From contig NC_037594.1 of the NCBI RefSeq assembly GCF_003073045.1, positions 29,190,737-29,254,736 of the forward strand: a stretch of 64,000 bases of DNA. Reading direction: 5' to 3'. How positions within the stretch are numbered: position 1 is the first letter of the stretch; every line of letters begins with the position of its first letter. Positions 219 to 30,156 of the stretch are shown piece by piece. The notes beneath the pieces were generated by a model that worked only from the letters and a program-made list of their open reading frames with translations, made no database searches and was not told where the DNA came from. A program made the position numbers and the translations under genes. The DNA is from Pomacea canaliculata. Lineage: Eukaryota; Mollusca; Gastropoda; Architaenioglossa; Ampullariidae.

Positions 219-475
219 GCTGGAATACATAGCGATGACAGTCTCCTCCGATGGGGCACCTCATCATCTTCTATGCTCTTTCACGGAGTCGGAGTCGTAT
301 GTAAGTTTGACAAAATCGAGAAATTCGCCATCTTGGAAATCGAGGAATGTGGAGTTCGCTTCAAGTTCCGGGCTCACAACCCCAGAGAGCCTCCCAACAA
401 GCAGAGACTCATGCCAGGACTGTCCATCCAAGCACCCGCCAGCGCCAGCTTCAGCACCAATGATGAATTTGAGAG
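219..475 (+). CDS. Gene A exon: second half of the VWD-like module
   Basis: Open frame of 85 codons between the acceptor TTTTCAAG and the donor AG|GTGAAC. It shares RWG, FHGVG, VCKFD, KFAIL, CGVRFKFR, NPR and LMPGLSI blocks with the B exon at 8772-9028. Length (257 nt) and intron phases (0 in, 2 out) are identical to B. No lesion is seen inside this exon. Confidence 0.75.
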
Positions 476-2542
476 GTGAACATTGGCTTCAGAATTGATT
501 TTATGGTAGTAGTAGTAGTAATAGTTCAAAGTAGTTTACAGGACACGGGGTGATTTGTTTACAATAATGCATGCCCCTCATCATATGAATCATCGCCCTT
601 GCAGATATATAGATAAATTCTATAAATTAAAGATTACAGATAAATTGTAGGGGTTATCTCTACTGAATTGAACGGTAAATTATTACTCTAAATTATTACT
701 GGTATGGGGTTTCATGCAGCTGCATCGAAGATTATGAATATTAACACTTTTGCTGAACATATCTCAATATCAAGAAAAAATTTTCATTAGTTGATTGTCA
801 AGTTTTTCTCGTAGACGGGTTTTCTTTTGATTAAAATGGTGGTTTTAAAGATTATTTTACAGACTTAGGTTACATTACTTTTAACCTCATCATCTGTTAT
901 AATCTAACTATCAAAAGGTATACTTGAACTTCTTAATCTCATGCTCTGGTGACTGTCTATGTCAAATGGTTAAACTTATTCATGATTCCAGTAATCAGCA
1001 ATTTTCATTGTTTTGTTTCTAAAGCATTCCGTTCTTTTCCTTATGTGGTCGGACATTTGGAGATGGCGACAACAACACCATCTTCAACAACCACAGAATC
1101 AACATCTTGGGTTTAATAAACGGCATCAGGTAAGACTGAAGCTGTGAAACAGGTGTGTGTATGTGAGAACTGCATTTTTGTGTTTAGATTGTATTCTCGT
1201 GATTACCTGATTAGCTTAAGTTTTTCCGTTGTGTGAAGGAATAGCATTCATTAGATAGGAGAGGAAAATAGACGATAAAGTCGAGGACAGATGTAAAAGT
1301 TGCGGTGGCTGCTCTCTGTTTCAGGTCATGCTGTACTTCATTCTGGCGCAGAAACTTGTTCAGACTCTGTGAGTAGAGCAACTAAAGAAACTAAAACTTT
1401 TGTGTGTAAAATATAGGTACAATAGGAAACTCATTTTTAACATTAATCTGGTTTCCTTACGCTGTCAAAAACATACTCAGATTTTTTTAGCGGGTTGGAG
1501 AATACGTTGTATGAAATGGAAGACTGTTTGCTCTGGTTACCTTTACAGTGTAGAGTGTGTAGTTTTGTAGTGAATGCTCAAAGAACGTGGCTTCCTAACC
1601 CATTGAGTACCTTCTTAACCAAAACACACACAATCATCAACACAGGGGCATAAAACACTAGCAAACATTTTAACTCAAAGAATTAAATATATATTTCAAA
1701 ATTCTTCAGCAAACAAAATCATTAACGTACTTTACAAATATACTTTCATATACACTAAAATCATTTTCTCACTTAAAACCAAAAGTCGAGCATTCATATG
1801 ATTCGTTGAAAATTCTGTTTTCTAGTCCCCTTCGCCAGTTCTGAGCTTCAACATGAAACGCTCGCAAACCAACAGTCTTTCTTTCAGCTTCTGCCTCTCT
1901 CGGAGCCAAGCACGATCGGGCATTACCAATATACTAGAAAAGCATAAACACAGAAATAATCAACCCTGGACAAAAAAAGTCACTAACATTTACCATTTAT
2001 TAAGGTTTCAGTTTACAACACTACCCACCAAAATTATCCCGTTCAGATTATTTACATTCGGTAATTTACATCACATACGAAGTTAACAATAATAACTATA
2101 AACACTCTCGTACAAAAAAGAGAAATAATCGTGCAAACTTAAAAACTAATATATATATATTGATTCACCTCAACAGATTTTTCAATTTAATAAATAAAAT
2201 CTTTTACTAAGTTTGATCATGATTTTAAAGTTGTCTGGACTTAGGAACAAAACCATAAATTTTCCACAACCTGGTTAAAATCAGATTTCTCCGGAATTAA
2301 AAAAAAAATAAAACAAAAGCAAGTAACTCCAGGTCTCAGCCCTAACCTTCACCATTTATGGTAGTGTATCCTTTGAATGACCCAGTAAACATGTGACTGT
2401 CAGGAGACGCACGCGCGCACAACACATACACACTAGCGTTCATTCAAAGCTGAGACTAGGTAGCTACTGTGATCGGCTACAGGTTTTAGCTATAGCTACA
2501 GAATGCTAATAAAGTATGTGTGATTCATTTGCTTGTCAACAG

Positions 2543-2835
2543 AATAGATAAAACCGGCCGAGCTGCTCCCCTACTCCAGGGAGTGCACCGACGCCATGAC
2601 CCTGTTCGAGCATTGCCCTAACAAAACTTCCGCCGTTCGCGCCTGCAGTGGTGTGGTGAAAAACAAGGTGACTGTGAAATGTTTGGGACAGAATCTGATG
2701 GCAGCTTTCAACAAATGTCTGGCCAATGTGTGCGGAGGAAACCTGTGCAAGTACAACATTAAGGCAGAGACCGGATGCCACGTACCACTTACCTTGCAGC
2801 GAGAAAAAAGAGAACAAAGATGTCCCGGGTCTTAA
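2543..2835 (+). CDS. Gene A terminal exon: Cys-rich domain, short form
   Basis: The coding frame ends at TAA 2833-2835. Cysteines follow C-x9-C-x9-C-x11-C-x11-C-x4-C-x4-C-x9-C, the spacing of gene B's terminal domain, with RACSGVVKN and VCGG blocks shared. NKT is a possible N-glycosylation site. The exon is out of phase with the upstream 44-nt exon by one base, which is part of the case for gene A being broken. AATAAA follows at 2991-2996. Confidence 0.72.
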
Positions 2836-5700
2836 GATATTCATTTAAATTCGTTACCTAGAAACGATCTTGAAAATGTGAAACAATTTAGTTTCCCTGA
2901 TGCAATGACATGTTAAGATGGACTTAAGGACAAATCTGTTGTTTTAATGTTTCGCTTCGTTCTTTGGAAATACTTACCATGCAGTAACAGAATAAAACAG
3001 TTGTCAACAAACGTGATATTTCTTTTTCTTCTCTACAACTCTAGTCCTGTCCATAATAACTCATGAAAAAGACACAAAAATGATTATTTTTTTTAGTTTA
3101 CTGGCTCTTCAACCTTTGCTTAAACAAGCCGGAGTCTGTTGTTATGTGTGAGACTATTCGAAAGATGAATATTAGCAGATACGGAGAAACTGAAAGTTTG
3201 AGTGAAGACCTGTCCTGTCGAGAGAATTAATTTCCTTTGTCACAGACACAAGCGCGCTCGACACTCACGCAGTAGACCGGACAATCGTGAACACACCATC
3301 GCACACATGTAAACACAGTGTCCACACGTGTTCTCACTCAACAGATTACAAAGACCTGTCGCTGGGATTCTCGTTTTATATTATCGGGAATTTATTTTTT
3401 GTTTGTTGGGGTTCATATGGGCACTAAGTCCGAATACTGTCATCACGATGAAGTTAATAAAGACTTACATTGTCGAAGTAGCTCGAATGAGTTTGTGCAA
3501 TCATCGAATATATCCACACGCCACACAACCACACTCAAGTGCTCCTGGAAGTATCTCCATTGACGACAATGCTATCGTCTTGCACTGGATGACCCCTTCT
3601 GAGGTCAGGGCTGCTGGGGAAGACGCTCCACGGCTACTACTCCGGTTGACGGAGACAAAAGTTTCTACTTCTAGTAATCCACTGCATCTGGTACTGGTTA
3701 CACAGACATTTTTGGCTGAAGGAGACAACACTTTAACTTCCTGTGATAATCTTCAACAAAATGACAAAATGGGGGCGTGGAGGGAAACGCTCTGGTCTCC
3801 TGCTTGTCCGTGTCTTGACCATCTTGAGCCAAACTTGCCATCGCACTTACTTCCCCTATAATTAAACCCTGAAAACACTTATTCCTTAATGAACACACAA
3901 GTTGGACCTCTATAAAATGTAACCTCTGACTTGAGATAACTTCAGGAACTACGTGGTGTCTCGGCATTCACTTGTCTTCCTGGATGTGAAGCGTTGGCCG
4001 ATGAAGTTAATTATATTATAGTCCCCCTTTCTAGAATCTTCTATCTAAAAAAAAAAACTTTGTTTCTTGACAGACAACCCATGCTGTGCAGACTCGTGTA
4101 AAAATTTCCATCTGGCAACCGATTGTATTTACCTGCTTGCAAGACCAACAAGTAGAGGCTGTCTGTTGTTTCCACGGTGCGACTTTTCAACGCTGTTGTG
4201 TGAATGAATGTACATCATTGTAAGACTATGAATGTGTTGTTGTGTTTTTGTTTTTGTTTTGAGCTTTTATCTGCACAGACGTAGAGTTGCATCTAATTAC
4301 CTTCTTTGATAAATAAATTCTTATTTTATTCTAGTAAGCATAACTTGGTTAAAATTTAAGTTGCTTTCAGAGAGAGTGGTGCCCAGCTGGTGCAATCCAG
4401 ATAGGGTGGAGATCAATAAATCATATGTAAATAATTTATTTACTCTTCTTTGTGTAGATGTTGCTTCTCCATGTCGTGCATCTGCACTAGCATACAGGAA
4501 AAAATAGAATGTTTATCGATATTAGGACACGAAAACTATGAAAAAGCTTTTATCCTGTGAATGCGATGTCATCTATCTTTCTGTTATTTTTATTTGTATA
4601 TATATATAAATCTTTCTTCTCTTTTTATCAATTTATCTCTCCTTTTCTCTCATTGTGTATGTGCACATGAGTGAGGGAGAGATTGAACGCATGCGCACAC
4701 ACACACACATACACGCGCTCACCCTTCGCGAACGCGCAACTGCACGTGAAGACATCGTGAAGACGTCTACAGCCGTGACCATACCTGGTGTCAGTTGAAC
4801 AGCAAAAGCCTCTGACACTTGACATGACTCCTAAATTTGCACTCGATACGCAGAGAAAATCGGATGAGGGGATTCCTCCCTGCAGCCATAAATGTATCCT
4901 TCCTTGTCTTTCGGTTTTAATGGCTGTCATCATTACATCTCGTTTATCACCCCCGCAGCTGCCGCTGCTTGCAACGTCAACGACATCTCCAACACATTTC
5001 TGTGATTACTGCTGTTGTCTCCCCTGTAGATCATCAGTATTTTCTTTCTTCACTGGTTTTTTTGTTTGTTTGCTTTTTTGGTTTCTAAAATCGCTTTTAT
5101 GTTGAGTTTAATTATTCACTCATAATTTAAAAAGAAATTATTAAGTAAATAAATTACTTCCTAAATGCTTGAATGTTTTGTGTGTTCCCTTTGTTCTGAA
5201 AATAATAACAGAAATTCTAAAACATTGGAAAGTAAGAAGCGAATAGTTTTTTTCCTGACACATCATATAAATAGCGAATCTCTATTATAGATTATTCTTC
5301 GATTTGTGAGATAGAAAGAGAAAATAAGTTTGTTTAGACACAAGGACTGCACAGTTCTCTTCATCCCATTATAATCATGAGGATGAAAATGAAAACAAGA
5401 CAATCTGCTTTGTCGACAGCAACCTTTAGTCAACAGATCGTCGATACTGAAGCTTTGCACTAAATGAGTGAGGTCTAAATTATACTAAAAATGTTATAAA
5501 AATGTAATGAAAATAGCCCTTCTTGACACTTTTTACATAAAAAGCGCAATAGATAGACAAAAAAAAGTTGCTCATCATTTTTCGGTGGCTGCCTTCACCC
5601 GAAGGTCGATGGTACTTCAACCGTCAACCTTATCGTCTCTTGGGCAACAGAAGTCATAAAATGCACGGAATCGCTGTCATGCATTCCTATCAATCACACG
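2836..5700. other. Intergenic DNA between genes A and B
   Basis: Contains gene A's 3' end, a weak Cys-rich candidate exon at 4074-4207, a short CA repeat near 4696-4712 and AT-rich sequence. The longest open frame (3328-3861) has no recognisable domain or family similarity. Nothing else here is supportable. Confidence 0.5.
4074..4207 (+). CDS. Possible Cys-rich terminal exon, unassigned
   Basis: A polypyrimidine tract and TTGACAG acceptor precede a 44-codon frame ending at TGA 4205-4207. It has eight cysteines, including PCC and DSC clusters. An AATAAA-like signal (ATAAATAAA) follows near 4310. The cysteine spacing does not match the terminal domain of genes A-E, and no upstream coding exon could be linked. 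It may be a chance frame; confidence is low. Confidence 0.15.
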
Positions 5701-5712
5701 TTGAGTAAGAAC

Positions 5713-5720: not shown

Positions 5721-5744
5721 GAGCTTGGAATCTAGATGTCCCAA

Positions 5745-6404: not shown

Positions 6405-7030
6405 TCTGAATGATTTGGATAAACTGCAGGACCCTACGACCATTTACGATCAGACTGATCGACAGTTCAAAAGCATATGGAATGGAGATTCAGCACTGAA
6501 AACAGAAAAGTTATGTTCAGTAGTAACGGCAAAGTAGAGATTTATATGAACGGGGTACAGCTAGAAGAGGTCAGCAGCTTCAAATACTTGGGAGCCACCC
6601 TCTCCAAGGATGCAGCGGTAAAGCAGAGACATAGACATGAGCGGGGTACAGGTCGAAGAGGTCAGCAGCCTCAAGTACATAGGAGCCACCTTCTCCAAGG
6701 ACGGCAGTTCCAGATACCCGCATCAGGCTCCCAACAGCAACGGCGGCAATGGCTAGACTAGATACGACCTGACATAAGCCATAGATAAGGTTCACTACAA
6801 AGTATAATCGAACAATTCCCTTGTAGTGCCTTTATGGATGTGGCACGGGGACTCTGCTCACCAAAACTGAAAGATAAGTCGAGGCATTCAAAACAAGTGC
6901 CTTAGGAGGCCCACCCGGAATCTCCTACAAACAACATAGAACCAACGACTTCGTACCGAATAAGGTTGTGACACAGTCGTATGACACCAGGCATCAATAC
7001 TCACATGTGACCCTGGCACGACACCCTGTT
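6405..7030 (+). mobile_element. Decayed non-LTR retrotransposon (LINE) RT fragment with an internal duplication
   Basis: Translation in shifting frames gives AYGMEI, then RKVM, MNGVQLEEVSSFKYLGATLSKD, recognisable as the palm-to-thumb part of a LINE reverse transcriptase. A second diverged copy of the VEEVSSLKYIGATFSKD stretch follows about 91 bases later, so the segment is tandemly duplicated out of frame. Near 6850-6970 TLLTKTE, EAFKT and NDFVP remnants continue the same protein. Stops and frameshifts show it is dead. It lies in the inferred 5' UTR intron of gene B. Clade not assigned. Confidence 0.75.
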
Positions 7031-7247: not shown

Positions 7248-7317
7248 ATGAACACCCTTTTTCTTTGTGTGCTCTGCGTCTCGCCGCTAATCTTTGCCTT
7301 TGCCTCTGGAAACAAAC
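7248..7317 (+). CDS. Gene B exon 1: signal peptide
   Basis: ATG AAC ACC begins a 23-codon segment with a leucine/valine/phenylalanine-rich core and a probable cleavage site near AFAS. Donor GTGAGT at 7318, phase 1. The start was chosen because it is the first ATG after the acceptor at 7237 and opens directly into the hydrophobic core. Confidence 0.75.
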
Positions 7318-10300
7318 GTGAGTGACTGCAACCCTGGAATTTTTTTAAATTTTTTTTATGGCATATTTATCATTATGACTGGCAGTGTCCCTTACACTAC
7401 TATTTGGCATTTGTATTACTCGTTGTTTTAAAGTGCACACCTTATAACATTTTTCTTTTAAGTTTTGTAAACCATGCATCTTCTTAAATGTCATGATTAG
7501 AATTTCTACAAGTTCTAAACTATGACAACCGGGTATCTTGAGGTACAACTTTGCGAATTCAGATATCTGTCCCCGTGTTTCAACAGATGACTTTGAAATT
7601 GGAATTGCAAAAACATTCTAATTCAACTGTCATCTTTGTTTCAAACGCAGCGCCCCCAGGGGCATGCACAAAAGGAAAACAACAAATATGTGTTCGGAAT
7701 GCAACTTGTGTAAACAATCAATGTGTGTGCAACCCCGGCTTGAAAGGTGATGGTCGCTTCGAGTGTGTCCAGAAAGGTCAGTCCCCTCATTATATTCACA
7801 TAGTAACTACATCCTCATCTTCCAACGATCATGAATTTTATTTATACACGAACAAACATTTGATGGGGTTCGTAACGAGGACTTTGTAAGCTGGAAATTT
7901 TTTTTAGACAATAGCATCAATTAAACATGAAATTATGGAAGTTAAAATGTGACTTAATTATTTCCTAGATACCAGCAATAAAACTTGCATATTTCTGAGC
8001 TTAAACTCATCAACTTGAACTTTTATTTAGCTCTCTCAAAATTTCTCGTAAGGCAAACAATATAGCTCCATAATAGCAATGAATCTTTTATGGTAGTCGA
8101 AAAAAATGAAAAAATGAAGGAGAGGCTTATTCAATATCTCTTTCATCAAAAAGTTTGGGATGCTATTTTTTTGAATGTCTTGCATGCATGGCGATGTCTA
8201 AGGTAGCTAACATCCTTGCCCTACCTCTTCAGACGAACACGTGTGTCAAGTAACGGCCGACCCACGTGACTACGCTTTCGAAGGAGGCAGAGCTCGCATT
8301 TATATTCCCTGTAAATATCGTCTAACAAAGTTCATGACCACCTTCCGCAACTCACAGTCTAAGATGAGATTCTGCGAGTTCGAGGCTTTCAGCTTCGGCA
8401 AGATTGTTGATGGACATAACTTTGTTGGCGGACTTGAAGTTAAAGTGTTTGTCTACGACAGCGAAACTCAACAAGCCTATCAGAGAGACTTTCTCAAGTT
8501 TGAGATCGATTCGGTAAATTATGAAATAATTTCAAATAAAATCTTAGTATTAAATCATAAGAGAAAAAGAATATTACCAATTTACAAACAGTAAACATCA
8601 GGCACTGACAAGAAAAATTTTGTTCAGCTTGTGATTTGATTTTTTAAAAACTGAAATGTCCAATGAAGATGGTGATTATGTGTACGACTATCACTGTTTT
8701 CTTAACATTGTTTTATTTACCGAAAACCAATATTTTTAATAATAATTATCAAGTCATTATGCATTTTGAAGGCCGGAATTGCTAGCGAGGGCCATCGTCT
8801 CCGATGGGGCAGCTCGCAATCGGCTTCAATCTTTCACGGAGTCGGAATCGTGTGTAAGTTCGACATAGAAGAGAAATTTGCCATCTTGGACGTCAAGGAC
8901 TGTGGAGTTCGCTTCAAGTTCCGGTCTTACAACCCCAGGAACCCCGCCAACAAGCAGCACTTGATGCCAGGACTGTCCATTAAAGTTCCTGCCACCGCCA
9001 TCTTCACTACCAATGAAAAGACGGAAAGGTGAAAAATCTTTTCTTCAAAACACTTTCTCGCAGTTAACTAGCTGAATGGTAGTTTAGTCTTGTGTGGTGC
9101 AATGAGACTTAGTTTGGTCTCTCGTCAGGCTAACCCTAGATCTTTGTATGTCCCTTTCTTCCTCTCTTTCCATCGTTTGCTGTCTTCCTATGTCAAACAT
9201 CATTGCCAAACGTGCAGTACCTAGTACTTTTATCAAATGTGTTGGCACAAGTAACATAAAAAGTTAAATAAAGAAAGATGCTTCAGAGCAAAATTCACAA
9301 ATCCAGTTATTTTGTAGATGTGTTTATGATGGTACAAACGGTCATCATTCTCTCCTCTTATGCACAGTTTATTTGTCATTGCTGTCTTGTGTCTTGTCTG
9401 CAGTTTTCCTAATGTTCTGTGCGGTCGACCATCACCACAAGACGACAGCGAGATCTTCAACAGGGAATTAGTTCGGCTAAAACTGGATAAACGACATCAG
9501 GTACTGTTAGAAGGGTGGATCAGTCGGGTGTGCGTGCTAATAATACCTATCTGATGTTCTATTAAAATTGTAAGAGTAAACGCTTACAATACTTTTTTTT
9601 TTAGTTACCTTAGTCGACAATGTTAGTATTGTGTGTGCTTTCATGAGAGAGAGAGAAAGCATGAGAACTGACCCAACTCTTCATGCATTTAATATTTCAA
9701 GAAAATAAATGATTGTTGCCTGCATCGCTATTGAAATACAAAATCCTACCACAATGATCTTTTCTTCAGGTTATGCTTTACACCATATTGGAGCAGAGAC
9801 TGAATCAGACTCTGTAAGTAAAAATTACACCTAATAGTTTGTTAATGAACTTTATTTAACAATGACAAATATATACAAGCTTCCGCACACGCATACAAAT
9901 CAGTTTGAACTCGACTTGTTAAGTTCTCTTCTTTTTTTTTTTTTATCTTTATTTTTTTTTAATGTCTTACATTTGTCAGTCTCTGATCAGAAGAGAGAAG
10001 CTTAAAACCAAAATTTACTCCGTTAAAGAAGTTGTGTCCTCCATACTTTGATCCGCTCTTCTTGTCCCAGACTATGGTGGTGTATGAGTCACATTTCTGT
10101 TGTATATTTTGTTGTCAAAACCAGTTAACTAGAACAATTACTTTTATTTATTTTCCAATCTATTTATTTTCCAGGTATTTAGTAAAGGGTGCATTTTTCT
10201 GGACTAACAGTTATCTTGAATTTTAATATGGATAAGTGTCTATGATCATATTCTAAAGCAAGAAAATTTTGTCTGCTTATCTTTGCCTGCCTGGCTTTTT

Positions 10301-10870
10301 ATACATTTTGTACACGTCCACTGGTTGATCGAATTATAGATACAAAAGTGTTCAACTTTTTAAATATTTAAAAATTATTTCTAGTTAATTCATCTTTTGA
10401 CATAACTGTTTTTGTTTAACTTTATGAGGTGATAGTAAAGCTTTTTTTTTAAAATTTAAGATGGCCGAAAGACCTCAGGCACACCTGCAAACATTTGTTA
10501 AGAGCTGGAAAATCTTAAGCTAAACTTAATTTAGTAAAACAGAAATGGTTACTTTTAAACATTTTCTGTTACATTTTATTTTGTCGACAGGATAGCTAAT
10601 CAGTCCCAACTTCTTCCATATGGTAACGACTGCAGAAATAGTTTTCAACTGTTTAAAACCTGTCGCCATAAGAGCTTGGCAGTAAGAGCATGCAGTGGAG
10701 TGGTCAAGAACACCAAGACGGTCAGATGTTTAGGAACGATGGTCATGGCCATCTTCAACCACTGCCTGTCCCAGGTGTGTGGAGGGTCTCTGTGTAACCT
10801 CGACTTTGAGGCCACGTACGGATGTCACGCGCCGTTGACATTTACCCAAGAGAAGAAAAAGAACTGTTAG
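7248..10870 (+). CDS. Gene B: secreted EGF / VWD-like / Cys-rich protein, 384 aa
   Basis: Exons 7248-7317, 7651-7776, 8233-8513, 8772-9028, 9404-9500, 9770-9813 and 10591-10870 (stop TAG) join through GT-AG introns into 1155 nt without a stop. Residues 1-20 are a hydrophobic signal peptide. Residues about 24-65 are an EGF-like domain with six cysteines (spacing 7,5,4,1,11) and a GDG turn. Residues 66-277 resemble a VWD module, with TADPRDYAFEGG in place of GDPH and LCGR in place of CGLCGN. Residues 278-291 form a short exon-encoded segment. Residues 293-384 hold a nine-cysteine domain. Intron phases are 1-1-0-2-0-2. RNAT is a possible N-glycosylation site. AATAAA lies at 11078. Most likely extracellular; function unknown. 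It is the only complete EGF-bearing member here. Confidence 0.82.
7651..7776 (+). CDS. Gene B exon 2: EGF-like cassette exon
   Basis: 126 nt (42 codons) between AACGCAG and GTCAGT, bounded by phase-1 introns on both sides. Six cysteines fit the EGF fold, and NPGLKGDGRFEC is typical of EGF modules near the last cysteine. Genes C and E join signal peptide directly to VWD in the same phase, so this exon can be gained or lost without shifting the frame. Confidence 0.8.
8233..8513 (+). CDS. Gene B exon 3: first half of the VWD-like module
   Basis: 281 nt, phase 1 in and phase 0 out. It reads CQVTADPRDYAFEGG, then IPCKYRL, and later FCEFEAFSFGK, corresponding in position to GDPHIRAFSG, LPCRF and FAFGR in gene C. 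The GDPH motif of classic VWD domains is not kept. Confidence 0.78.
8772..9028 (+). CDS. Gene B exon 4: second half of the VWD-like module
   Basis: 257 nt, same length and phases (0 in, 2 out) as gene A's exon at 219-475, with near-identical RWG, FHGVG, CGVRFKFR and LMPGLSI blocks. The acceptor TTTTGAAG has a weak polypyrimidine tract, but the boundary matches gene A. Confidence 0.78.
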
Positions 10871-11410: not shown

Positions 11411-11575
11411 GTGGGGTCCGGTGGCCTAACGGTTAGCGACTGTCAAGTACAGTAAAGTTTGGCTGTCCTGGGTTCGGATCTCGTCTCGGACACGCTGTTA
11501 TTTCTGTGCAGTGAAAGTCACCGAAGGCGATAATCAGAAAAGCTACTGACTGAAATCCCACGACCATATCGGTCC
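11411..11575 (+). mobile_element. tRNA-derived SINE, full head
   Basis: An RNA polymerase III A box (TGGCCTAACGG, 11422-11432) and B box (GGTTCGGATCT, 11471-11481) about 40 bases apart. They are followed by TCGTCTCGGACACGCTGTT, which recurs in the copies near 48.9 and 61.6 kb. It is not a functional tRNA: I see no cloverleaf acceptor pairing. The 3' boundary is approximate. Confidence 0.65.
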
Positions 11576-12556: not shown

Positions 12557-12559
12557 TTG

Positions 12560-12850
12560 AGGTTGTTCTCCCAAGCTGAACTCTGCTCACGTAGACAACT
12601 TTCCCTCGCCGGTGACCATGATTTTACTCTTGTCAATGCTTGTTTTCATTCCAGCTCATTCTGTTGATAAGGTCTTCCAGTTCTTTTTCAGTACCTGCTA
12701 TCAGATGGATGTCGTGAGTAAAGTGTGAGCTGCAAATCAGCTTTCCACCGATGGGAGTGGTCGTCATGGAGGTTTTCATGTATGATGTTCGCCAAATGCT
12801 AAACAGCACAGGTGATAGAGTGAACCCGAAAGATGCGCCTGCTGTCGTGT
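12560..12850 (-). mobile_element. LINE fragment, RT palm region, inverted
   Basis: The minus strand reads GFTLSPVLFSI, then IGGKLICSSHFTHDIHLIAG and KELEDLINRM, followed after a frameshift by KSKIMVTGEGK. This matches the palm of a non-LTR RT. The catalytic FADD is changed to FTHD, so it is inactive. It faces the plus-strand tail fragment at 12323-12556 (converging). This is not the order expected from twin priming, so it probably reflects rearrangement or two insertions. Confidence 0.7.
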
Positions 12851-13851
12851 GAAAAAAAACTCCTTTGTTGCTATGTTGTTATCAGCAGCACTAAGCTTGC
12901 ACTTCTGAGCTATGTTAAATGTTTGCATACTTCCTTTTGCAGCCTTTCAAACCAGTTCTCTCCAGGAGGATTAGTAACAGCGTGCAAGAGACTATAAGGC
13001 TGTTTGCATCACACTGAATTTAATATATCTTCCAAAGAACAGAGTTGATTATACGATTCGTTAAGACACTCGTATACTGGCTTTTGCTACATGAGAAATG
13101 TCAACTTTAGAAGTGCTTTAACTAGACTGCAATAAGGTATTTATATAGTCCATACCCTCAGATTAATATACAGGACATTATCTTTTCATTTATATTCCCC
13201 ATTTTACTCACATATCGACAAAACGAGCTTCATTTTATATTTTTTGGTTGGAATATCGACTTTCGTGAGAAATATATTCCTTTGAAATTTTGTAGAAATT
13301 CGCTTTTCACATTAACGTTGCTCCTTAGCAACAGTTAGGAGAACGATAAAAGTATGTTACACAGCAGGACATGCTTTGAAGGCATTAATGATGCACAACA
13401 AAGCTCTGTCATCAAGTGCATGTTTGTGAGTAGCATGTTTACCTTGTTAGATGTTTTGTAAATAACTGCAGGTGTGACTACTACCTCTTTGTAATACGGA
13501 TTAAGGACCAAAGCAATGAAAAAAGTTCGTTTCGGTTTGCATCTACAACTCTGAGGGCAAGGGAGGTGTGTGAGGGGGAAACATCTGAAGAATACTTACA
13601 AACTACATCTTTGCTGGATTGATGTGAAGTGGTGCTGGCCTCTTCAACAACATGTCTCGACAAGAAGTTACCGAGGTTAGTGAGAGCTAATTGATCAAAG
13701 AACATTATTCACTGGATTTTATTCTTAACAACACAGCATTTAGTGTCCAGCTTTTGTTTCTCAAGACAATAAATAAAAGTTTAAGGACATCATTATTAAT
13801 TTTATTAGTTCCCTTTGACGTGTTGTTTTTGTTCTTGTTTTCATTAAAAAG
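12851..13851. other. Upstream region of gene C
   Basis: AT-rich sequence. Minus-strand frames near 13481-13896 show no domain and are probably chance. No TATA box could be tied to gene C. Confidence 0.4.
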
Positions 13852-13914: not shown

Positions 13915-16751
13915 ATGGGGCTACTACAGATACTGTTCTTTGCAGCCTTTGTGCCATTTAGTGATGCTCATTTCGACTACAACTGGACAGGTAAAGACAC
14001 GGGTGTGCTATTACAAATACATTATTGTAATATCATTTAACTTCTTACCTGTCACTGCGCTACTTTTGTGTACAATAGAAAGATAGGACAAAATTAATTT
14101 ACCTGAGCAATTTAAAATAAAGGTCGCTCCCTAAAGGTCTTTAAGAAGTGAAACCTCTCTTTTTCTTGGGATCAGCTCTCCTCTAAGTTGATACCTCAAC
14201 AGGTATTACACTAAGTGCAGTGAATTTCAAACCAACTTACATTTGTTTATTAGGATTTTTTTTAACAACAATTGCTTTTCCTTTATCGTGGTATCTGGGG
14301 AAATATTACTCAGGTGAATTACTCGTGTACATTCACTTGAAGCACCTTTATTTAATTATCACCTCTATTTTGAGGTACTTGTCACGCAGTTTTAACAGAG
14401 TCTACAAAATATTTTGTATTACTTTTTACACAATTTTATATTTTCAAGAGACGATTTGATATATTTTGCCCGACATCCTTTTTCAGTTTTCTTTCTCTAC
14501 CTCTCAATCTCTCTGGCATTGCTTTGAGGTGAGTGGACTATTCATTAGGGGAACATTCTTCCAAACATTCACCCCGAGGGAGCTACCAGACCGCTTTTAC
14601 CACTCATCTACCCCTTTAAACAATCTACAAAAATCACTGTTCATTAAGATGTAACATTTCTCGTGATTACTGAGCAGATACCGACTCCGGACTCTTCGGG
14701 GACCCACATATAAGGGCATTCAGTGGAGCGAGAGGAACAATCCTACTCCCTTGCCGGTTCCACGCCAGTGAATTAACTTCCACAGTCAACAAAACCACGT
14801 GCACCACCGAGATCTTCGCCTTCGGCCGCGTGTTTGGACGAGGCGTGTACACGGGTGGAGTGGAGATCCACCTCAATATCGTGTCTTTACGGGACCCTGT
14901 CCCGCATCACTGGACCATGAAATTTGTTCTCAAGAAGGTATGTGATGTTTTGAAAAGTTATCATCTTTTTTTAAAATATTTTGGGGTGCTGTTGGGAATT
15001 CAGCACAGGGACTTTTTCAAGCAAATTATAGGAAGTGTGTGTATATGCGATTGTCTTTGTCCATGAGCATGTCTTCCTGTGCTGTTTCTTTTGTGTTCCT
15101 CAGGGCTGCCTGAGTTCAGGTGGAAATACTTGTCAATGGGGGAAAAGCAGTGTCATCAGGCTCGGTCCGTGTATACTAAACTGGACTTTCCACCAGTCTT
15201 TTGTGATGCTGCAAGCACCTGTTTGTGGGCTGAAACTGGTGTACAGGCTCAATGACAATCCACCCGGAGTTATCATAAGCGCACAATCGAGAAGGATCAT
15301 CACCGTGAATGGGTAATCTTGTCCTTTGTCATATGTAGTCCTAGTTTATACTCCATCAGCGTGTGTATGTCTAGAAATATAAACAGAAAAAGTGTGCATC
15401 AGAGAGAAACCTACGTCCGTTCCAGAAAATTATGAATGTCACTGGTCCAGAATATTAGTAATGGTAACTGTCACAGTAATGGTAGTTGTCACAGTAATGG
15501 TAGTTGTCACAGTAATGGTAGTTGTCACATTGTCGAGCCATGAGCAGACTGTAACTGTGATGTTCACTTTCAGGTATCGCAATTATGTTTTTTGTGGCAA
15601 CAATAATGATACTTCGAGGATGTACGTGGATGATGCAAAGTCATTGAAGTTGGATGATGTTAACCAGGTCGAGACATTTTCTTTTTGGTGTACTGCAAAC
15701 TTTTTAAAACTATAATATAACTATTTAAAAATTCTTTAAAGATTTTTTTCATAAACATATATTTACTTAAACAAGGTAAGTTAAAGATGATTTCGTTTTC
15801 TTCTTGCAATAGAGTACAGAAGTAAAAGACGATTCGAATGCATTTTAGTTACAATAGGAATAGGCAGGCTTTGTGAATTTCTATTTAAAAAATGTATCGG
15901 GATTTGAATATTTTAAATTATAGTACATGGTGCATTACATTTTCACATTTTTACACTGGGTGACACAGCATACCTGGAAGGAAGCACACACATATTAATA
16001 CTTAGCTCTTGTTCTTTGTTAATATAAGACATTTGTGAAGATGTTTAACTGTCTTCTGACTTGTGCAGGCTTTGGCATACAGGACTCTTTCTTCAAATCT
16101 GACACAGCAGATGTAAGTATATATATATACAAATATCAAGACTACAATATCTATATACATGTAATTGTCTCTTTACAACTTTCCATCACACGATAAAATA
16201 TTTTGATGTCTATAAATGTTGGTCGCTCTGTCGATTTGGCAGAGAATATAGGCGCATGCGTTTTAGTCTGTCTGTGTGTGTGTGTGTGTTTGTGCGCGTG
16301 TGTGTGTGTGAGGGCACGAGTGCATGTGTATGTCTATGTCTTACTAACCTGTAGGAGTAACAACAATGACAACACTAACAAAACACTCCCCCTTCTTTGT
16401 TGCAGTCTTATACCATCGTTGACGGCGGATCTGCATCCCAATGCCGGCCATTGCTCCACTGCCATCACTTCTTTCGCCTCGTGCAGTCCCCTCGCCAGAC
16501 TAAAGGCCATAAAGACTTGTCTGGACATCTTCAGGATGCGATCACTGCTACGCTGCTTTGTAAAACGAGGAGAAACATACCCGATGTATGTCTTCTCACT
16601 CTGTGTAAATTCAGTCTGCACATCACATCGTAAAAGCTGTCCCTTATTCAAGTATGAGATGAATCTGTGCAGTTCCGGTTCTAAACTCACAGGGGCCATG
16701 AGCCTCACGATGAAACAACCCTGCCTGAAGGACAAAGGCAAGCTTGAATAG
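13915..16751 (+). CDS. Gene C: secreted VWD-like / Cys-rich protein, 342 aa
   Basis: Exons 13915-13990, 14678-14937, 15104-15312, 15574-15667, 16069-16112 and 16406-16751 (stop TAG) join into 1029 nt with no stop, all GT-AG, phases 1-0-2-0-2. Residues 1-18 are a signal peptide, then HFDYNWT. Residues 26-213 are a VWD-like module with GDPHIRAFSG, LPCRF, APVCGL and FCGNNND; the usual CGLCGN is reduced to one CGN. Residues 214-227 come from the 44-nt exon. Residues 228-342 hold a nine-cysteine domain with the family spacing (long form, x11, x15 and x6 gaps). NKTT is a possible N-glycosylation site. AATAAA lies at 16909. Probably extracellular; function unknown. This is the cleanest copy in the cluster. 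Confidence 0.85.
14678..14937 (+). CDS. Gene C exon 2: first half of the VWD-like module
   Basis: 260 nt, phase 1 in and phase 0 out, between GAGCAG and GTATGT. It carries GLFGDPHIRAFSGARG and LPCRF, the clearest VWD signature in the window, then FAFGRVFGRGVYTGG, which is shared with D and E. Confidence 0.82.
15104..15312 (+). CDS. Gene C exon 3: second half of the VWD-like module
   Basis: 209 nt, phase 0 in and phase 2 out, acceptor TTCCTCAG and donor GG|GTAATC. It ends with QAPVCGLKLVYRL and GVIISAQSRR. E (28251-28477) and D (21625-21860) have matching APLCGLTLVYRT and APVCGVSLVYKT blocks. Confidence 0.8.
15457..15528 (+). repeat. 18-bp minisatellite in gene C intron 3
   Basis: Four tandem copies of AGTAATGGTAGTTGTCAC (the first has two changes), ending 45 bases before the acceptor of the CGN exon at 15574. 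The period is a multiple of three and it reads open, but homology shows it is intronic. Confidence 0.85.
15574..15667 (+). CDS. Gene C exon 4: reduced CGN motif
   Basis: 94 nt, phase 2 in and phase 0 out. It encodes YRNYVFCGNNND and then an acidic KLDDVNQ end. Orthologous exons are 9404-9500 (B, LCGR), 28740-28833 (E, FCGNRTD), 21192-21288 (D, LCGNRTD) and 1025-1129 (A, LCGR). Confidence 0.8.
16269..16320 (+). repeat. GT microsatellite in gene C intron 5
   Basis: Imperfect (GT)n run with interruptions, about 100 bases before the terminal exon. Confidence 0.7.
16406..16751 (+). CDS. Gene C terminal exon: Cys-rich domain, long form
   Basis: 346 nt coding, acceptor TTGTTGCAG. After IPSLTADLHPNAGHC, the cysteines follow C-x9-C-x11-C-x11-C-x15-C-x4-C-x6-C-x9-C, plus a ninth near the end. 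E has the same spacing exactly and D has it once its frameshift is allowed for. The single-exon origin suggests an independently folded disulfide-rich domain. Confidence 0.82.
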
Positions 16752-17886: not shown

Positions 17887-18484
17887 ACACAGGAGAAATA
17901 AAGGATTCGTTTCTCACTTAATTACCACTGATTAGCACTATTTCGGTTGCCGATGTTTATAAACATTGAAAAAATCCAGTGAAATCGACCTTTGTGTCCT
18001 TCCGCCGTGTAACCACGATAGCTTCCAGAGATGGCAGAGGAGTCTTATTGTGATGTCAGTCTTCTTGTGATGTCAGTCTACTTATGACGTCACACGCACA
18101 GAAAGTGTCTGAGGTCATTGCGAAAATTTGACGTCATTTTATCGTATGACGCACTCTGTGTGTAAGGCTTGTAAGGCTCTGTCTGTCGGAAACTGATGAA
18201 AAGACAATTTTGAATCTTTTCCATCTTTTCGTGGCAATCGGGTGCAGCACATTCTCGAAGCATGGTTGTCACTATGGAAACCACACGTCATAGGGTCACG
18301 TGACGGAGAACGAGACTTCGTGGAAGCAAAAAAAGAGTCCCGTGTCATTTCTCTTATTAAACACAACATTCTACTAAAAACCTTCAACGTTTTCCACATG
18401 AACACACATATAAATAGACGAGATTCAAATGTATCCTACTCTGTACGCCATTCTAAGCAGTTTTATTTTGCCTTTAGAATCCCT
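17887..18484 (+). mobile_element. TTAA element copy 1 (Kolobok-like, non-autonomous), 5' truncated
   Basis: About 600 bases nearly identical to copies at 25302 and 44635. The right end reads TAGAATCCCT followed by TTTA rather than TTAA; the left terminus is missing (homology starts near ACACAGGAGAAATAAAGG). On the minus strand it has the degenerate THAP start (CAAPDC preceded by ATG CTT). It has perfect TGACGTCA sites at 18085 and 18129 and TATAAATA at 18409-18416. Confidence 0.8.
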
Positions 18485-20362: not shown

Positions 20363-22421
20363 TTATTTACCAACTCGCATTTTCAAAGATTTTTTTGGCA
20401 TTCTGGAGCAGTTGGGCGAGCGGTAAGCACTCCACAGACGCGTTGGTGGCTTCTCGGTTATCTCAATACAAGGGCCCAGACCTGTCTTAAATAAATTACA
20501 ATTAGCAGAGCTTGGGTTGCACATCATAGAAAGGCAGAATTGAAGATGATCATTGGGTAAGTTGCACCGGAGGCTGACAAGCAGGTCAACAGTCGTCTCT
20601 TGCTGAAAATGCCGAGGCAGGTGTTTATCGCCCTGTCTTTGTCAGTTGGTCCACACCCGACAAACAAGGTGCTTGCATTTTCACACAGCCTGCTGTTGGG
20701 ATGCAGCTGCGGAGTCAGCGAGGGGATAATGCTGCGACAGAAAATGCTCATCCTGGAAATTAAATTATAGTGATGAACTGATGAAGTTTCTACAATTTTG
20801 TACTGCTTAATGAAAAGAAATTTGATTTTTAAACATTTCCACAGCCAGTCATACTCACAGATTCTGTTGCACAGGGGAAGAAAGCATTCTGTAGCCAATC
20901 ACCTGTTTGAAACCAAGCAAAAACCACAGACCAGTTACATATTTCTATCAATACTAAACTCTTACCTAAATTTCTTATGCTTTATGGTTTATTGCTGTAT
21001 CGGTAAAGAAATGAAATATCTTTGTCAGACAATTTAATTTCAGAGATAAAAAAAACTGATTTAAAAAAGCTACATGAAAACATACTTTATAATTTGCTGT
21101 GGTTTATGTGTTTAACAGTAGTGTCTTTGTTTTCTATCTAATCTTAACTAGATGTTAGTACACTGCTAACGATCGCCGAAAATGTTCCAACCTCTTTAGT
21201 AGAATCCAGTTTAAGAAACACTCGATCGTCTTCGAACATACTTTCACCATCGGTCCTGTTGCCACACAAAGCGTAGTCCCGCAAGTACCTGCAAGTAAGC
21301 AACCACTCGCCATCTGGATATATAATCCACAAAAAGTGAAATAAGCTGTGACATCTACTAATAAAATTTCCAGAGTCCAGACTGCCCTCCTAAAGACAAA
21401 TGTTACTAAATTCTGTGATTGTGATTAATCTCAGCGTTTGCCGAAACAGCCAAGAAACAAGCTTGAAAGACTTCAAGAATGAAAAAGAAACAAATCCACA
21501 GTGTATTGATGTATCGTGATCATTATTGTCGAGGAAAACAACAATAACATAAGTTAAAAAAATTAAAATTGACAGTTGAGATGGAGTTCTGTTGTGCTCT
21601 GTATAGAATACAGGGGACGACTACCCAAGGGGAGAGATGTAGCGCCGTGATGCAGTCTGAATGATGATCTCTGACAAGTTGACTGAGATAGTCTTGTACA
21701 CCAGGGACACACCGCACACAGGTGCACTCAGTGTCACGTGAGGTCCATTGAAGATCCACTTGAGTGTCACGCCACCTACCTGGGTTTCATTACTTATCCC
21801 CCACGGAACATTTAATATACGTGTTTCCACAAGGCTTGAGACAGCTATCTGCAGGATGCCCTGAGAATAAATAATATAGAAAACAGCAATATATATATAA
21901 ACACACAGAGCTGTAAACATAAACTATATGAACTGTTCATTTCCAGACAAAAATTGTATTTCTACTAGGTTTTTTTCCAATCGTTTCATCAATTTTTCTT
22001 GTTGTTATTGTTGTTATTGTTGTTGATGATGTTGCTATTGTTATTGTTATTGTTGTTGCTATTATTATTATTGTTGTGATCCGAGCTGGCTTCCTTATGG
22101 TCACTGATGTACATACTTTCACATTATCATGTTTACACTTCATGGGCAAAACTATTTAAATTACTTACATCTGTGATAACGAGGCCGATGCCGTGTGTAC
22201 CAATATTGTTCCTCGAGATTTGGATAGCAATCTCTGCTCCACCCGTGTACACACCCTGACTACTCACAACCCCGAAGGCAGAGACACTCGTGACACAACG
22301 CGTGGTGTTGACAACATCAGAGATTCAGTCGGGCGGCCAAGAACTTGCAAGGGAAGTAGGATCGTTACTCGTGCTCCGCCGAACGTCCTTATGTTGTCCC
22401 AGAAGAGTCCGCATTCAGTGT
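20363..22421 (-). pseudogene. Gene D: inverted, inactivated VWD-like/Cys-rich copy
   Basis: Five exons on the minus strand match genes C and E: 22421-22169 (first VWD exon), 21860-21625, 21288-21192 (LCGNRTD), 20902-20859 (44 nt) and 20731-20363 (terminal). The first VWD exon has lost GDPH (GLFWDN) and contains at least two frame changes between LLP and VNTT; read straight through it hits TGA. In the terminal exon the frame breaks after PMIIFN: the naive frame stops at 20524, but the next frame continues CLSMMCNPS, a conserved-spacing C and the closing cysteine, to an ancestral stop at 20363-20365. No signal-peptide exon was found upstream. The middle exons are intact with usable splice sites. 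Closest to gene E. Confidence 0.8.
21937..22140 (-). repeat. TTGTTA/ATT microsatellite inside gene D intron
   Basis: Imperfect (TTGTTATTG)n and ATT repeats, densest at 22000-22080, between gene D's first two surviving exons. Confidence 0.7.
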
Positions 22422-22429
22422 CTGAACAT

Positions 22430-24330: not shown

Positions 24331-24339
24331 GCTGCCAGG

Positions 24340-25297: not shown

Positions 25298-25301
25298 TTA
25301 A

Positions 25302-26011
25302 AGGGATACACAAGGCTTGTGATAAGGCTCTGGTGACGGTTGAACGTTTCAAAACTATATTTAGTTACGATTCCAGAGCATGAGAGCAACACAGGAGAAA
25401 TAAAGGATTCGTTTCTCACTTAATTACCACTTATTAGCACTATTTCGGTTGCCGATGTTTATAAACATTGAAAAAATCCAGTGAAATCGACCTTTGTGTC
25501 CTTCCGCCGAGTAACCACGATAGCTTCCTGAGATAGTCAAGCAGACGAGTCTCGGTGTGACGTCAGAGTCTTTGTGATGTCAGAGTCTTCTTGTGACGTC
25601 AGTCTCCTTATGACGTCACACGTACAGGAAGTGTCTGAGGTCATTGCGAAGATTTGACGTCATTTTATTCGTATGACGCACTCTGTGTGTAAGGCTTGTA
25701 AGGCTCTGTCTGTCGGAAACTGATGAAAAGACAATTTTGAATCTTTTCCATCTTTTCGTGGCAATCGGGTGCAGCACATTCTCGAGGCATGGTTGTCACT
25801 ATGGAAACCACACGTCATAGGGTCACGTGACGGAGAACGAGACTTCGTGGAAGCAAAAAAAGAGTCCCGTGTAATTTCTCTTATTAAACACAACATTCTA
25901 CTAAAAACTTTCAACGTTTTCCACATGAACACACATATAAATAGACGAGATTCAAATTTATCCTACTCTTTACGCCATTCTAAGCAGTTTTATTTTTCCT
26001 TTAGAATCTCT
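25302..26011 (+). mobile_element. TTAA element copy 2 (Kolobok-like, non-autonomous), complete
   Basis: 710 bases flanked by TTAA (25298-25301 and 26012-26015). The left end is AGGGATACAC and the right end TAGAATCTCT, an imperfect inverted repeat. The minus strand starts a THAP zinc finger (MPRECAAPDCHEK) that is frameshifted before KLSFHQFPTDRALQ. TTAA targets plus a THAP domain fit the Kolobok superfamily. Perfect TGACGTCA motifs lie at 25558, 25594, 25611 and 25655, and TATAAATA at 25936-25943. It lies between genes D and E, about 0.9 kb upstream of gene E's ATG. Too short for a transposase. Confidence 0.82.
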
Positions 26012-26015
26012 TTAA

Positions 26016-26876
26016 GCAACATCCGAGTCTCGGGTACCATCTATATTCACGATGCGAACGACTTGCTATACAGACGAGAAATGAGAGAAATTATAAGTTT
26101 ATTATTAACTTTGTGTCCTGGATGTGTTTCGTAACTCGTTAATGTCTGAACTGACTTTCTGTTAACCCATCTGTTCAAAAAGAAACTTGCAACAAAATCC
26201 ACAATGTCTCAAGTGTGCATTGACTCAAACTTCAGGTCGAGCAGGAAGATTTCTCGCATTTGTATCCAATCGAAAAGCCACAAACTTCACATTATTCTGC
26301 GGGAAAACTACTTCAACACGAAAATAAAATAGACGATCAAATTCATCAAGGGTTTGTGCCACTAAATTAAAAAGGAGGCCGTGTAAAAATGTCACTAAAA
26401 TGTATTTAATGTCTCTACCTGACCTTATGTCTTCATGACTGTTACAGTCAGAACCCTGACATCTCCAGCTAATATATGGTAAACAGTTTTATCTAAAAAT
26501 GTCTGAATGACCTCAATACCTGTCTAGTAAAACCTGTTATAATCTTGCTGTGGCCAAAGCCACAAGTCTTATAAGGACTTGAGCCGAAGACTAGCAGCTT
26601 TTTCGTGGTAACACCAGGTTGTGGTGAGTTCGATCTTTATTAGTTTCTAACTTGTGTTTATTCTGTTGGTGCTATTTAAGCATCTCAAAGATGTTGGCTT
26701 GTTTGGATGATCGGCGTTTGACAATAGCCAATATCGATGGTAGTTCGATAATTGCCCATGATGATGTTTCTGAGTACTAATAGTATGATTTGGGTTCATT
26801 CTGGAAGTCTGGGGTACTACTGAACACAATGTTTCCATTGGCCATAACATTTGATTTGTTTTGTTCTTTTTTTTAG
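26016..26876. other. Upstream region of gene E
   Basis: No coding exon recognised. It ends at the probable 5' UTR acceptor TTTTTTTTAG (26876). Confidence 0.4.
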
Positions 26877-27336
26877 GCTGCTTGTCTTTTTGCATATCAT
26901 AGTCCATGAAGTCAACTTTTACAGTGCAGGCGACTTTTTCACGACCATGAGTATAGTTCTTCGCAACCTGGTGTTGTTGACCTTTTTTCATTTTTCAACA
27001 GCTTGCTTTAAGTACAACTGGACAGGTAATGTATATGCACAAGTATTGTACAATATTGCCGTAATATCGGATTCAGTAACAAAACTGTGTCAATCAAAAT
27101 TAATTAAGCAGTAAGTGTACTACAAGAATGGATGTATAAACTTTGGTTGGTATCTGTGCGGAATCCTTTTTCCAAATGAGGAATATTTACATTTCCTTTG
27201 ATGCACTCCACTAACACTCGTATACCATCGACACCAGCAGCACCATCATCCTCCCACAACAAGCACCACCATCCCCTATATATATATTGTCGAACTATGA
27301 GAGTTGGTGTTATAACAAGGTCCTTCCTTGGTGCAG

Positions 27337-27589
27337 ACACTGAATGTGGACTCTACGGGGATCCACACATCCGGCCTTCAGTGGAGCTCGGGGAACCATC
27401 TTCCTTCCTTGCCGGTTCCATGCCGCCCAGCTGTTCATGAATAGTCCTTCCAGCGGAATTTGCTTTACAAACATTTTGGTATTCGGGGTCGTGCGTGGTA
27501 AGGGAGTTTACACTGGTGGAGCAGAGATTCATATCATATTGGTTAGCAACAGTCATCTGAAGCATTCTCTTCAGATTGTTATCTCCGAG
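27337..27589 (+). CDS. Gene E exon 2 with frameshift near 27374
   Basis: The first part reads DTECGLYGDPHI in frame with exon 1. From 27374 onward the homologous frame AFSGARGTIFLPCRFHA is one base off. Donor GTAAGT at 27590 keeps the family's phase 0 end. Confidence 0.75.
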
Positions 27590-28250
27590 GTAAGTATTTT
27601 TAAACAGGAAATAATTTGGCCCATTTTTTATTAAAACGATCCATTTTGGATAGTATTTATAGGTCAAAAAGCTAAAAATGGATCACTGTTGAATTTATAT
27701 GACGTACTGTCACACAGTCTACTTTTTCATTAGAATTATTCTTCGTTTTCAGCTTAATTTTGCTTTAAATGTTTATTTCACACTTTGTGAGAAGAAGGAC
27801 AGCATGGTTTCAAAACAGAGACAAAGAAACTAAACGAAAATTACAGAACAATAAACAAAAATCAACAAACGCAAAAGAATAATTAAGAAAAAAGAGATGA
27901 AGAGAGAACGGTGTCTATTGGGGTGAGTGAAGAGCATCTTTATTCGGCAGAGCGAATGTGAAACCTCCAAATCAAATAAAAGGAACAAAATTGTTGAAGA
28001 AGAAAAAATTATTATGAAAGATGACATTCTTTTGTCAAATATGATAGGTTGCTGGTTATATCTCAGATTCTTTCATACAAACGTGTTTTTACACTCGGTC
28101 CTTTGCATGATGATACTGTTGATTATGCTTGGTCCCCACTGACTCCTACATAATTTTAAATGTTTGACAGATGCTTCGTAATGTAGTAATGGTAATGATA
28201 GTAATTATCAGAAGATAATGCGTGCGTGTTTGCTGTCTTCCATGCTTCAG

Positions 28251-28477
28251 GGCATCCTGAAAATAACAGGCGGACTCGATCCGATGCCCAGCATTACATG
28301 GGGAACAAGCAATCAAATGCAGATAGGTCCTCTTGTAATCACGTGGACATTTAATGGCCCCTATGTGACACTGAGTGCACCTTTGTGTGGACTGACCCTG
28401 GTGTACAGGACACTCTCTCTCCGCCCGTCAGGGATTATTATTCAGGCTGCTACAAGACAATCCCTCGCTTATGCTGG
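28251..28477 (+). CDS. Gene E exon 3: second half of the VWD-like module
   Basis: 227 nt, acceptor ATGCTTCAG, donor GG|GTAATC. It shares WTFNGPYVTLSAPLCG with gene D's WIFNGPHVTLSAPVCG, the strongest D-E similarity in the cluster. Confidence 0.78.
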
Positions 28478-29813
28478 GTAATCTGACTGGATTATTTATT
28501 TGTATATATATATATAGACTAGGACTTCATATTAACACTAAATGTTACAATGTTTATTTATTATTATGTTATTGTTGTTGTCTCCAAAATAGTGATAATA
28601 AGCGTTTCTTATTCTGAAAGTAGATAAGAATATGTGGAATATTATGCAGTTTTATTAGAACATGTGAGAGTTAATTAATCAGACTTTTCTTCCTTTGTGG
28701 AAATGTATAAGACATCGGAGAGTGGTTGTTTATTTGCAGGTACCATAAATACGTTTTCTGTGGCAACAGAACTGATGTTGAAACTATGTTCGAAGACGAT
28801 GGAATGTCTTTGGACTTGAATACCATTGACCAGGTTGAAAAAAATTTTTATGATTACTTCCCGGATTTGTATTAGATTCCTTTATACGACAACGATAGAT
28901 AGATGGTTGTACGAACCAATCATTAATCGTGTTTTAATCTGATCTGAACATGGTTCTGAAGTATCAGCTACTGGCATCGTCCAGAATTAGTATTCAAAAC
29001 GGTTCGTTGATCCTAATGACAAGCTTGACTTTTGGTGGACAAGGCTCGCCAAAATGATTTCATCCATTTCGTGTTCCCTGTATTGAGGCTTTGAGCTTGC
29101 ATTCAAACTCAGAAATAATTTTTTTACAAATCAATTATAGTTGTTTTTGCTATTGTTGTTATTAAAATAATATAGCAAATGATGCTAAGAAAATAAAACT
29201 GTTTCCTTCAAAAAGAATATTCTTACAATAATAAAGCTAGTAAAAGGCAACAGATTTATGTCGAGATTTCCTCGCTGTCTTTTAAAAAAAAAGATTGAGA
29301 GAAAAGGTTTATTTTAAAAGTGTAGTGAGTAGAAATGTGTAATTGATATGAGGCTTTTGCATTGTTTCAACAGGTGCTTGCCTACAGAATTCTTTCACCT
29401 TCTCTGTCCCAGCAGCTGTGAGTATGGCCGAATGTTTAATATTCAAAAAAGTTTTAGTTTCATTAACTAATTTGTAAAAATAGAGTAGATTTCTTTGAAT
29501 CATTACCACGATGGAGTTGTCTTCATAAATATCATATGCATTATTTATTTTTGTATGTGCATAGATATTAGTGTATGTATATCTACTGATGCAGGAGTAT
29601 AGTATTAGGCAGAAGTTTTACATTTTGGAAGACGTGTTAGAGGAAATAAATAACTAATAAAATAATAACATGTGCTCTGTTATCCCCACACTAAATACCG
29701 ATGAAAAGCAAATGCTCACCAGATAGGTGCAGGTCTTAGTGTGGTGTAGACACAGTATACTGACCAACCAGGTGTTGCAGCAAAGAAAAAGCTGTCTTCA
29801 TCTTCTGTTGCAG

Positions 29814-30156
29814 CCTCATCCCATCCCTGACAGGGCAGCTGCATCCAAACCGTGGGGCGTGTGAACAAGCAAGCAAGATGTTTCGTGGGTGCAGCTCGGA
29901 GGATAAGATCAAGGCAATAAAAATCTGCCTCTTCATCTTCACCAAGCGACTACTGTTGAAGTGCTTCTCAGACTCCGGTGCAACAACCCCAATGATAGTT
30001 TTCAATACTTGTATTTCGGTGGTATGCAATCCAAGTGGTGTTTACTGCGATTCTTTCAAAACAGCTGTAAGGCCCTGTATCCTGACAGTAAATAAACCAC
30101 CAAAGCTTCTCTCACTCATGTATAATTCTACCGACTGCACAACCCCGACAAAATAA
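29814..30156 (+). CDS. Gene E terminal exon: Cys-rich domain, long form
   Basis: 343 nt, acceptor CTGTTGCAG. Spacing is C-x9-C-x11-C-x11-C-x15-C-x4-C-x6-C-x9-C, identical to gene C although most other residues differ. IPSLTGQLHPN precedes the first cysteine, as in C and D. Confidence 0.8.

Follow-up and report, generated by a model that had tools for sequence, protein, structure and literature searches.

A cluster of genes for VWD-containing proteins

A 64,000-nucleotide stretch of the Pomacea canaliculata genome (G000:C5:29190737-29254736, hereafter the window) carries five gene copies, A to E, which code for VWD-like proteins ending in a cysteine-rich domain encoded by the terminal exon. 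Judging by sequence, these copies quite probably belong to a family of small secreted proteins, each of which is one reduced D assembly, (EGF-like)-VWD-C8 without TIL and E. The original prediction described a cluster of five copies coding for secreted VWD-like proteins. The five copies in the window were borne out by genome searches and tblastn, the family proved to be larger than five, and the description of the cluster is right, with secretion taken as probable.

The whole genome assembly (24 contigs, 440,159,624 bases) was searched with terminal-domain and exon-4 queries and by local tblastn, so that all copy counts are lower bounds. At least ten copies were found: at least seven on contig C5 (Y, Z, A, B, C, D, and E) and three on C10, namely F with the adjoining H near 21.26-21.27 Mb and G near 2.57 Mb. 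Y and Z are located upstream of the window on the same contig, and copy A extends beyond the start of the window by 2 kb or more. An EGF-like exon was seen in Y, Z, A, B, F, G, and H; none was seen in C, D, and E. Canonical multi-unit VWD-C8 genes are located at G000:C5:28435194-28511952, about 0.7 Mb before the cluster.

Spliced models were built by hand in full for B (seven exons, 384 amino acids) and C (six exons, 342 amino acids), and both have an open frame (Table 1). The terminal exon had been predicted to follow an exon of 44 nucleotides. A script check of A, B, C, E, and Z gave exactly this length, with AG/GT borders, in all five, and 44 nucleotides were counted by eye in D. The exon was not located in Y, and in F and G it is merged with the preceding exon (by eye).

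Table 1. Exons of the five gene copies, in window positions. pLDDT, predicted local distance difference test.
Feature	Position	Strand	Basis
Gene A, second VWD half (earlier exons upstream of window)	219..475	+	65% identity to B
Gene A, VWD-end exon, frame broken within	1025..1129	+	By eye against B
Gene A, 44-nt exon	1325..1368	+	Script check
Gene A, C8-like terminal domain	2548..2835	+	Reading frame, acceptor not settled; 53% identity to B
Gene B, exon 1, signal peptide	7248..7317	+	Open spliced frame; signal peptide by eye
Gene B, exon 2, EGF-like, 6 Cys	7651..7776	+	Weak Pfam EB/EGF matches, best E 0.00085, below cut-off
Gene B, exon 3, first VWD half	8233..8513	+	Spliced model; six-copy exon profile matches FCGBP in PDB
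Gene B, exon 4, second VWD half	8772..9028	+	Spliced model; relatives on C5 and C10
Gene B, exon 5, VWD end (LCG)	9404..9500	+	Model; hhalign pairs LCG with canonical VWD LCG
Gene B, exon 6, 44-nt exon	9770..9813	+	Spliced model, script check
Gene B, exon 7, C8-like terminal domain	10591..10870	+	Model, Cys spacing; AlphaFold2 mean pLDDT 85.5
Gene C, exon 1, signal peptide	13915..13990	+	Spliced model; signal peptide by eye
Gene C, exon 2, first VWD half with GDPH	14678..14937	+	Spliced model
Gene C, exon 3, second VWD half	15104..15312	+	Spliced model
Gene C, exon 4, VWD end (FCGN)	15574..15667	+	Spliced model
Gene C, exon 5, 44-nt exon	16069..16112	+	Spliced model, script check
Gene C, exon 6, C8-like terminal domain	16406..16751	+	Spliced model, Cys spacing
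Gene D, first VWD half, frame broken	22217..22422	-	Two tblastn blocks, two frames
Gene D, second VWD half	21624..21803	-	tblastn
Gene D, VWD end (LCGN)	21192..21281	-	tblastn
Gene D, C8-like terminal domain, frame broken	20400..20730, low end approximate	-	C1-C4 and C5-C9 in different frames
Gene E, first VWD half with GDPH, frame broken	27336..27589	+	Two frames
Gene E, second VWD half (coding piece used)	28266..28478	+	tblastn, exon comparison
Gene E, VWD end (FCGN)	28741..28833	+	tblastn
Gene E, 44-nt exon	29374..29417	+	Script check
Gene E, C8-like terminal domain	29814..30156	+	Genome search, Cys spacing

The VWD domain

The first part of the protein is, by profile comparison, a VWD domain. 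When PDB was searched with a profile built from six copies of the first VWD exon, two FCGBP chains were matched with whole-chain E values of 0.0013 and 0.0067, which are summed over weak stretches; both chains align at VWD starts, in register. B and C, supplemented by fragments from A, Z, E, and F, made up another profile, which was compared by hhalign with eight canonical VWD-C8 sequences. With columns fixed to B, the whole-protein profile has a local score of 31.0, which none of 300 column shuffles reaches (mean 13.8, standard deviation 2.5, maximum 23.8) and which compares with 14.7 for the reversed profile. The VWD part alone scores 30.4.

Several results weigh against this assignment. The best single VWD stretch in the PDB search has an i-Evalue of only 2.8, and for the whole-protein pair the hhalign probability at default settings is only 28% (P 0.00063, 103 columns). 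No match to VWD (PF00094) was found in Pfam up to an E value of 10 with whole B, C, and G or with single exons of B, C, and E.

The copies differ at the GDPH site: C and E have GDPH, G and H have ADPH, F has SDPH, A and B have ADPR, and D, Y, and Z have lost it. In FCGBP, cleavage at GDPH occurs in many of the VWD domains, and in the D10 domain a change of Asp or His prevents or inhibits it (PMC10880436, available text). By analogy, B with its ADPR should remain uncleaved; C and E keep the GDPH motif.

In hhalign run with -mact 0.01, an exon-4 cysteine (DCGV in B, VCGL in C) pairs with the first cysteine of the canonical CGLCGN, and the exon-5 LCG pairs with the second one. CGLCGN thus seems to be split in these proteins, with a gap of 47 residues in B and 35 in C instead of the usual two.

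The terminal exon

In A, B, C, and E the terminal-exon cysteines are spaced by 9, 9-11, 11, 11-15, 4, 4-6, and 9 residues. D has the same spacing across two frames, with C1-C4 in one and C5-C9 in the other, and Z has 8 rather than 9 residues between C7 and C8. The eight-cysteine spacing given earlier for A, B, C, E and the frameshifted D therefore holds, but it missed a ninth cysteine, located 10-19 residues after C8 in all six copies of one alignment (A, B, C, E, Z, and F; alignment A1) and 13-19 residues after it in A, B, C, and E.

Canonical C8 domains (n = 8, six from the same genome and two from VWF) have spacings of 9-14, 13, 10, 12, 4, (CxC), and 9. Eight cysteines follow the C8 order in six of six A1 copies, with two exceptions in spacing: 9-11 residues between C2 and C3 versus 13 in canonical C8, and 4-6 between C6 and C7 versus about 9-11, internal CxC cysteines included.

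The idea of C8 arose from position, before any test: the terminal exon directly follows the VWD, which is the place of C8 in mucins and VWF. Because of this position, the eight-cysteine order, the test with C8 profiles and the paired cysteine losses described below, the exon is most likely a diverged C8 module, with no single line of evidence being conclusive. C8 (PF08742) is the sole Pfam family matched by copy F (E 0.16, 12.7 bits versus a cut-off of 23.7). Two C8 hidden Markov models (HMMs) were used, one of 82 positions (20 C8 sequences) and a shorter one of 54 positions, and the summed score of the six copies was compared with 1000 shuffles of each kind. The 82-position sum, 34.2, was reached by none of the full, 18 of the Cys-fixed and one of the Cys-moved shuffles. 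With the same model F alone was equalled by 4, 13, and 2 of 1000 and E alone by 24, 69, and 45; A, B, Z, and C were individually not significant against 1000 shuffles. Whole-protein hhalign at -mact 0.01 runs from the start of VWD through the end of C8 with the C8 cysteines facing each other, and they likewise face in a global alignment of the terminal domain alone.

Paired cysteine losses

The terminal domains of G and H are homologous to the others (27.7 and 45.9 bits, respectively); none of 1000 shuffles scored as high in either case (maxima 12.4 and 21.9). Among the nine cysteines, G lacks only C2 and C6 by alignment and spacing (17 residues from C4 to C5, 12 from C5 to C7), while H lacks only C4 and C8, the latter placed by spacing. 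The bonds of VWF C8-3, which we take to be 1046-1089, 1060-1084, and 1071-1111, correspond to C2-C6, C3-C5, and C4-C8, and the paired losses fit two of these three. The C7-C9 bond is our own assignment. If losses fell at random among C2-C9, joined in four bonds, the chance of both copies losing a whole bond would be 0.02. Two VWD cysteines, aligned with what is presumably the VWF bond 898-993, are apparently missing from H as well (by eye; exon end uncertain). Adding this pair lowers the chance to 0.0016 (14 framework cysteines, 7 bonds), a value which includes the by-eye reading. Under the proposed scheme all VWD and terminal cysteines of G pair, while A, B, and F have one odd exon-4 cysteine (by eye). 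Copy C is an exception to the scheme, since its first VWD cysteine is missing and the bond partner is kept, although C has three extra cysteines. In VWF, a 1091-1099 bond and an intersubunit bond of 1097 (1097-1097) are also present according to the available part of PMC8847404.

A diverged C8 or another domain

Other results speak against C8. No Pfam family reaches the cut-off in the six A1 terminal domains, with F alone matching C8, and the Pfam scan of G and H gave no C8 match. The 54-position HMM sum was reached by 7, 84, and 7 of 1000 full, Cys-fixed and Cys-moved shuffles, and the summed scores of either model are overstated, as related copies are counted as independent. In hhalign of the terminal domain against C8, the global score was reached by 21 of 400 all-column, 67 of 400 non-Cys and 96 of 400 segment-order nulls, and the local score by 65, 53, and 169 of 400. 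When only the terminal columns were shuffled, the whole-protein score was still reached 150 times out of 300 (local) and 237 times out of 300 (global). The AlphaFold2 model of the B terminal domain (mean pLDDT 85.5) is all-helical, and its helix 41-63 continues without a break across C4-C6, a course possibly at odds with the bonds of C8. No C8 structure was among the Foldseek and VIA-align matches listed for this model, the control, a canonical snail C8, having a pLDDT of only 36.

These data could be expected if the terminal exon, joined behind the VWD, were a new domain, helical and rich in cysteines, that has no kinship with C8 and resembles it in cysteine order by convergence: the Pfam cut-off is never reached, there is no convincing sequence or fold match in PDB and hhalign against C8 is not above shuffles. 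We consider such an origin unlikely, since the exon occupies exactly the C8 position, the 82-position profile favours C8, and two paired losses fit the presumed C8 bonds (chance 0.02, given four bonds of which one is self-assigned). Rather improbable as well is a separate molluscan domain, not homologous to C8, which would have replaced C8 next to a VWD with an insertion in its CGLCGN motif, the two-module unit being rebuilt on the same disulfide logic with a new helical partner. The original prediction regarded the terminal domain as unrecognised and a candidate for a new family, to be challenged by a strong match of the terminal exon to a named Pfam domain. No such match was found in Pfam, that of F to C8 (E 0.16) being below the cut-off, but an undescribed kind of domain is now less likely than a diverged C8.

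Selection and decay in the cluster

The proportion of nonsynonymous differences (pN) is lower than that of synonymous differences (pS) in 17 of 17 exon comparisons, and the ratio of the corresponding rates (dN/dS) is 0.17-0.53 in the 10 exon comparisons with unsaturated dS. On both counts, the exons are under selection and the conserved feature is not due to chance. Between A and B, dS is 0.55 in exon 3 and 0.46 in exon 4, while the EGF and terminal exons are saturated. This contrast in silent sites suggests patchy gene conversion.

Apparent frame breaks, read from tblastn blocks and by eye, affect A, D, E, Y, and Z, leaving open spliced frames only in B and C among the seven cluster copies. 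It is conceivable, though we lean the other way, that most of the cluster is dead and that no more than one or two genes still work in a tandem array under decay. The broken look of five copies out of seven agrees with this. However, dN/dS stays below 0.6 even in pairs with broken members (D-E 0.45-0.49), and leftover indels could explain some of the breaks, as the published P. canaliculata assembly was made from PacBio reads of a highly heterozygous genome and corrected with Pilon and Illumina reads (PMC6129957, available text). If the assembly used here is the published one, some of the breaks are probably real because of this Illumina correction.

Gene D is inverted and lies between two repeats in the same orientation (window positions 17887-18436 and 25389-25963), 98% identical across blocks of 146 and 300 nucleotides. 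A tRNA-derived sequence resembling a short interspersed element was recognised by eye at 11413-11494, and a similar stretch precedes gene G on C10. Fragments similar to the reverse transcriptase of long interspersed elements were seen by eye at 6459-6761 (+) and 12633-12878 (-). The part of the window from 31000 to 64000 has 29 listed open reading frames of at least 100 amino acids, none of them recognised as a gene by eye, no family scan having been run there.

Proposed architecture and role

A stop codon closes the terminal exon in A, B, C, and E, so no TIL or E follows the terminal domain. The B and C models contain a single D unit each, with neither mucin repeats nor a cystine knot. The proteins would be secreted, single-unit and disulfide-locked. 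The terminal domain would be helical and held by the C2-C6, C3-C5, and C4-C8 bonds plus a new C7-C9 bond, with C1 bonding back to the VWD. A compact monomer can be expected because the CxC cysteines of the VWF/MUC2 dimer interface are absent, or else a dimer in A, B, and F, which carry one unpaired cysteine. Mucin-like polymers are not expected, since the interface cysteines have no counterpart and TIL is absent. The array would have diversified by tandem duplication and partly decayed.

As a tentative guess, the proteins could belong to a secreted layer such as mucus, egg fluid or extracellular matrix, either as a structural component or to bind ligands. It is somewhat more doubtful that they serve in humoral defence or in egg fluid and not as structural matrix: tandem duplication, deep divergence among copies, a signal-peptide-like start and the EGF-like and VWD modules would suit such a function, but no whole-exon dN/dS exceeds 0.53, though averages could mask selected sites. 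The available text of papers on P. canaliculata egg capsule and ampulla proteins (PMC13394694, PMC8533556) mentions VWA, and the word VWD is absent from it.

Titles and abstract openings of papers on VWD, C8 and von Willebrand in snails, molluscs, gastropods and Pomacea contain nothing on this family, and the protein family itself may be undescribed. If our reading of a diverged VWD-C8 unit is true, such a unit can drift until Pfam sees neither half while its cysteine framework is kept. The paired losses of G and H would then be a natural series for C8 bonding, in a minimal D unit without polymerising cysteines, and single-unit D proteins are possibly under-annotated in molluscs.

Comparison with known systems

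FCGBP, built of VWD-C8-TIL-E assemblies, resembles the snail proteins in that VWD starts are in register, snail C and E keep GDPH, and some FCGBP C8 domains lack the CxC cysteines too. In contrast, the snail proteins have a single assembly where FCGBP has many, lack TIL and E and have an apparently split CGLCGN, and sequence identity is very low. Cichlid seminal plasma glycoprotein 120 can be compared by description only: the available text of the paper names a VWD domain eight times and a C8 domain once.

In VWF D1-D3 and MUC2/MUC5AC, too, a helical module rich in cysteines, with C-x4-C and C-x9-C, comes after the VWD. Unlike them, the snail proteins are single units without TIL and without the CxC cysteines, and have no counterpart of the dimer-interface cysteines reported in the available parts of the papers on VWF (1091/1097/1099, PMC8847404) and MUC2 (C1088, PMC6739602). 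The VWD-C8 genes of the same snail (C5:28.43-28.51 Mb) share the contig with the cluster, about 0.7 Mb off, and a VWF query found VWD-C8 units in them, but these genes have several full D units, TIL-like exons (by eye) and a strongly canonical C8.

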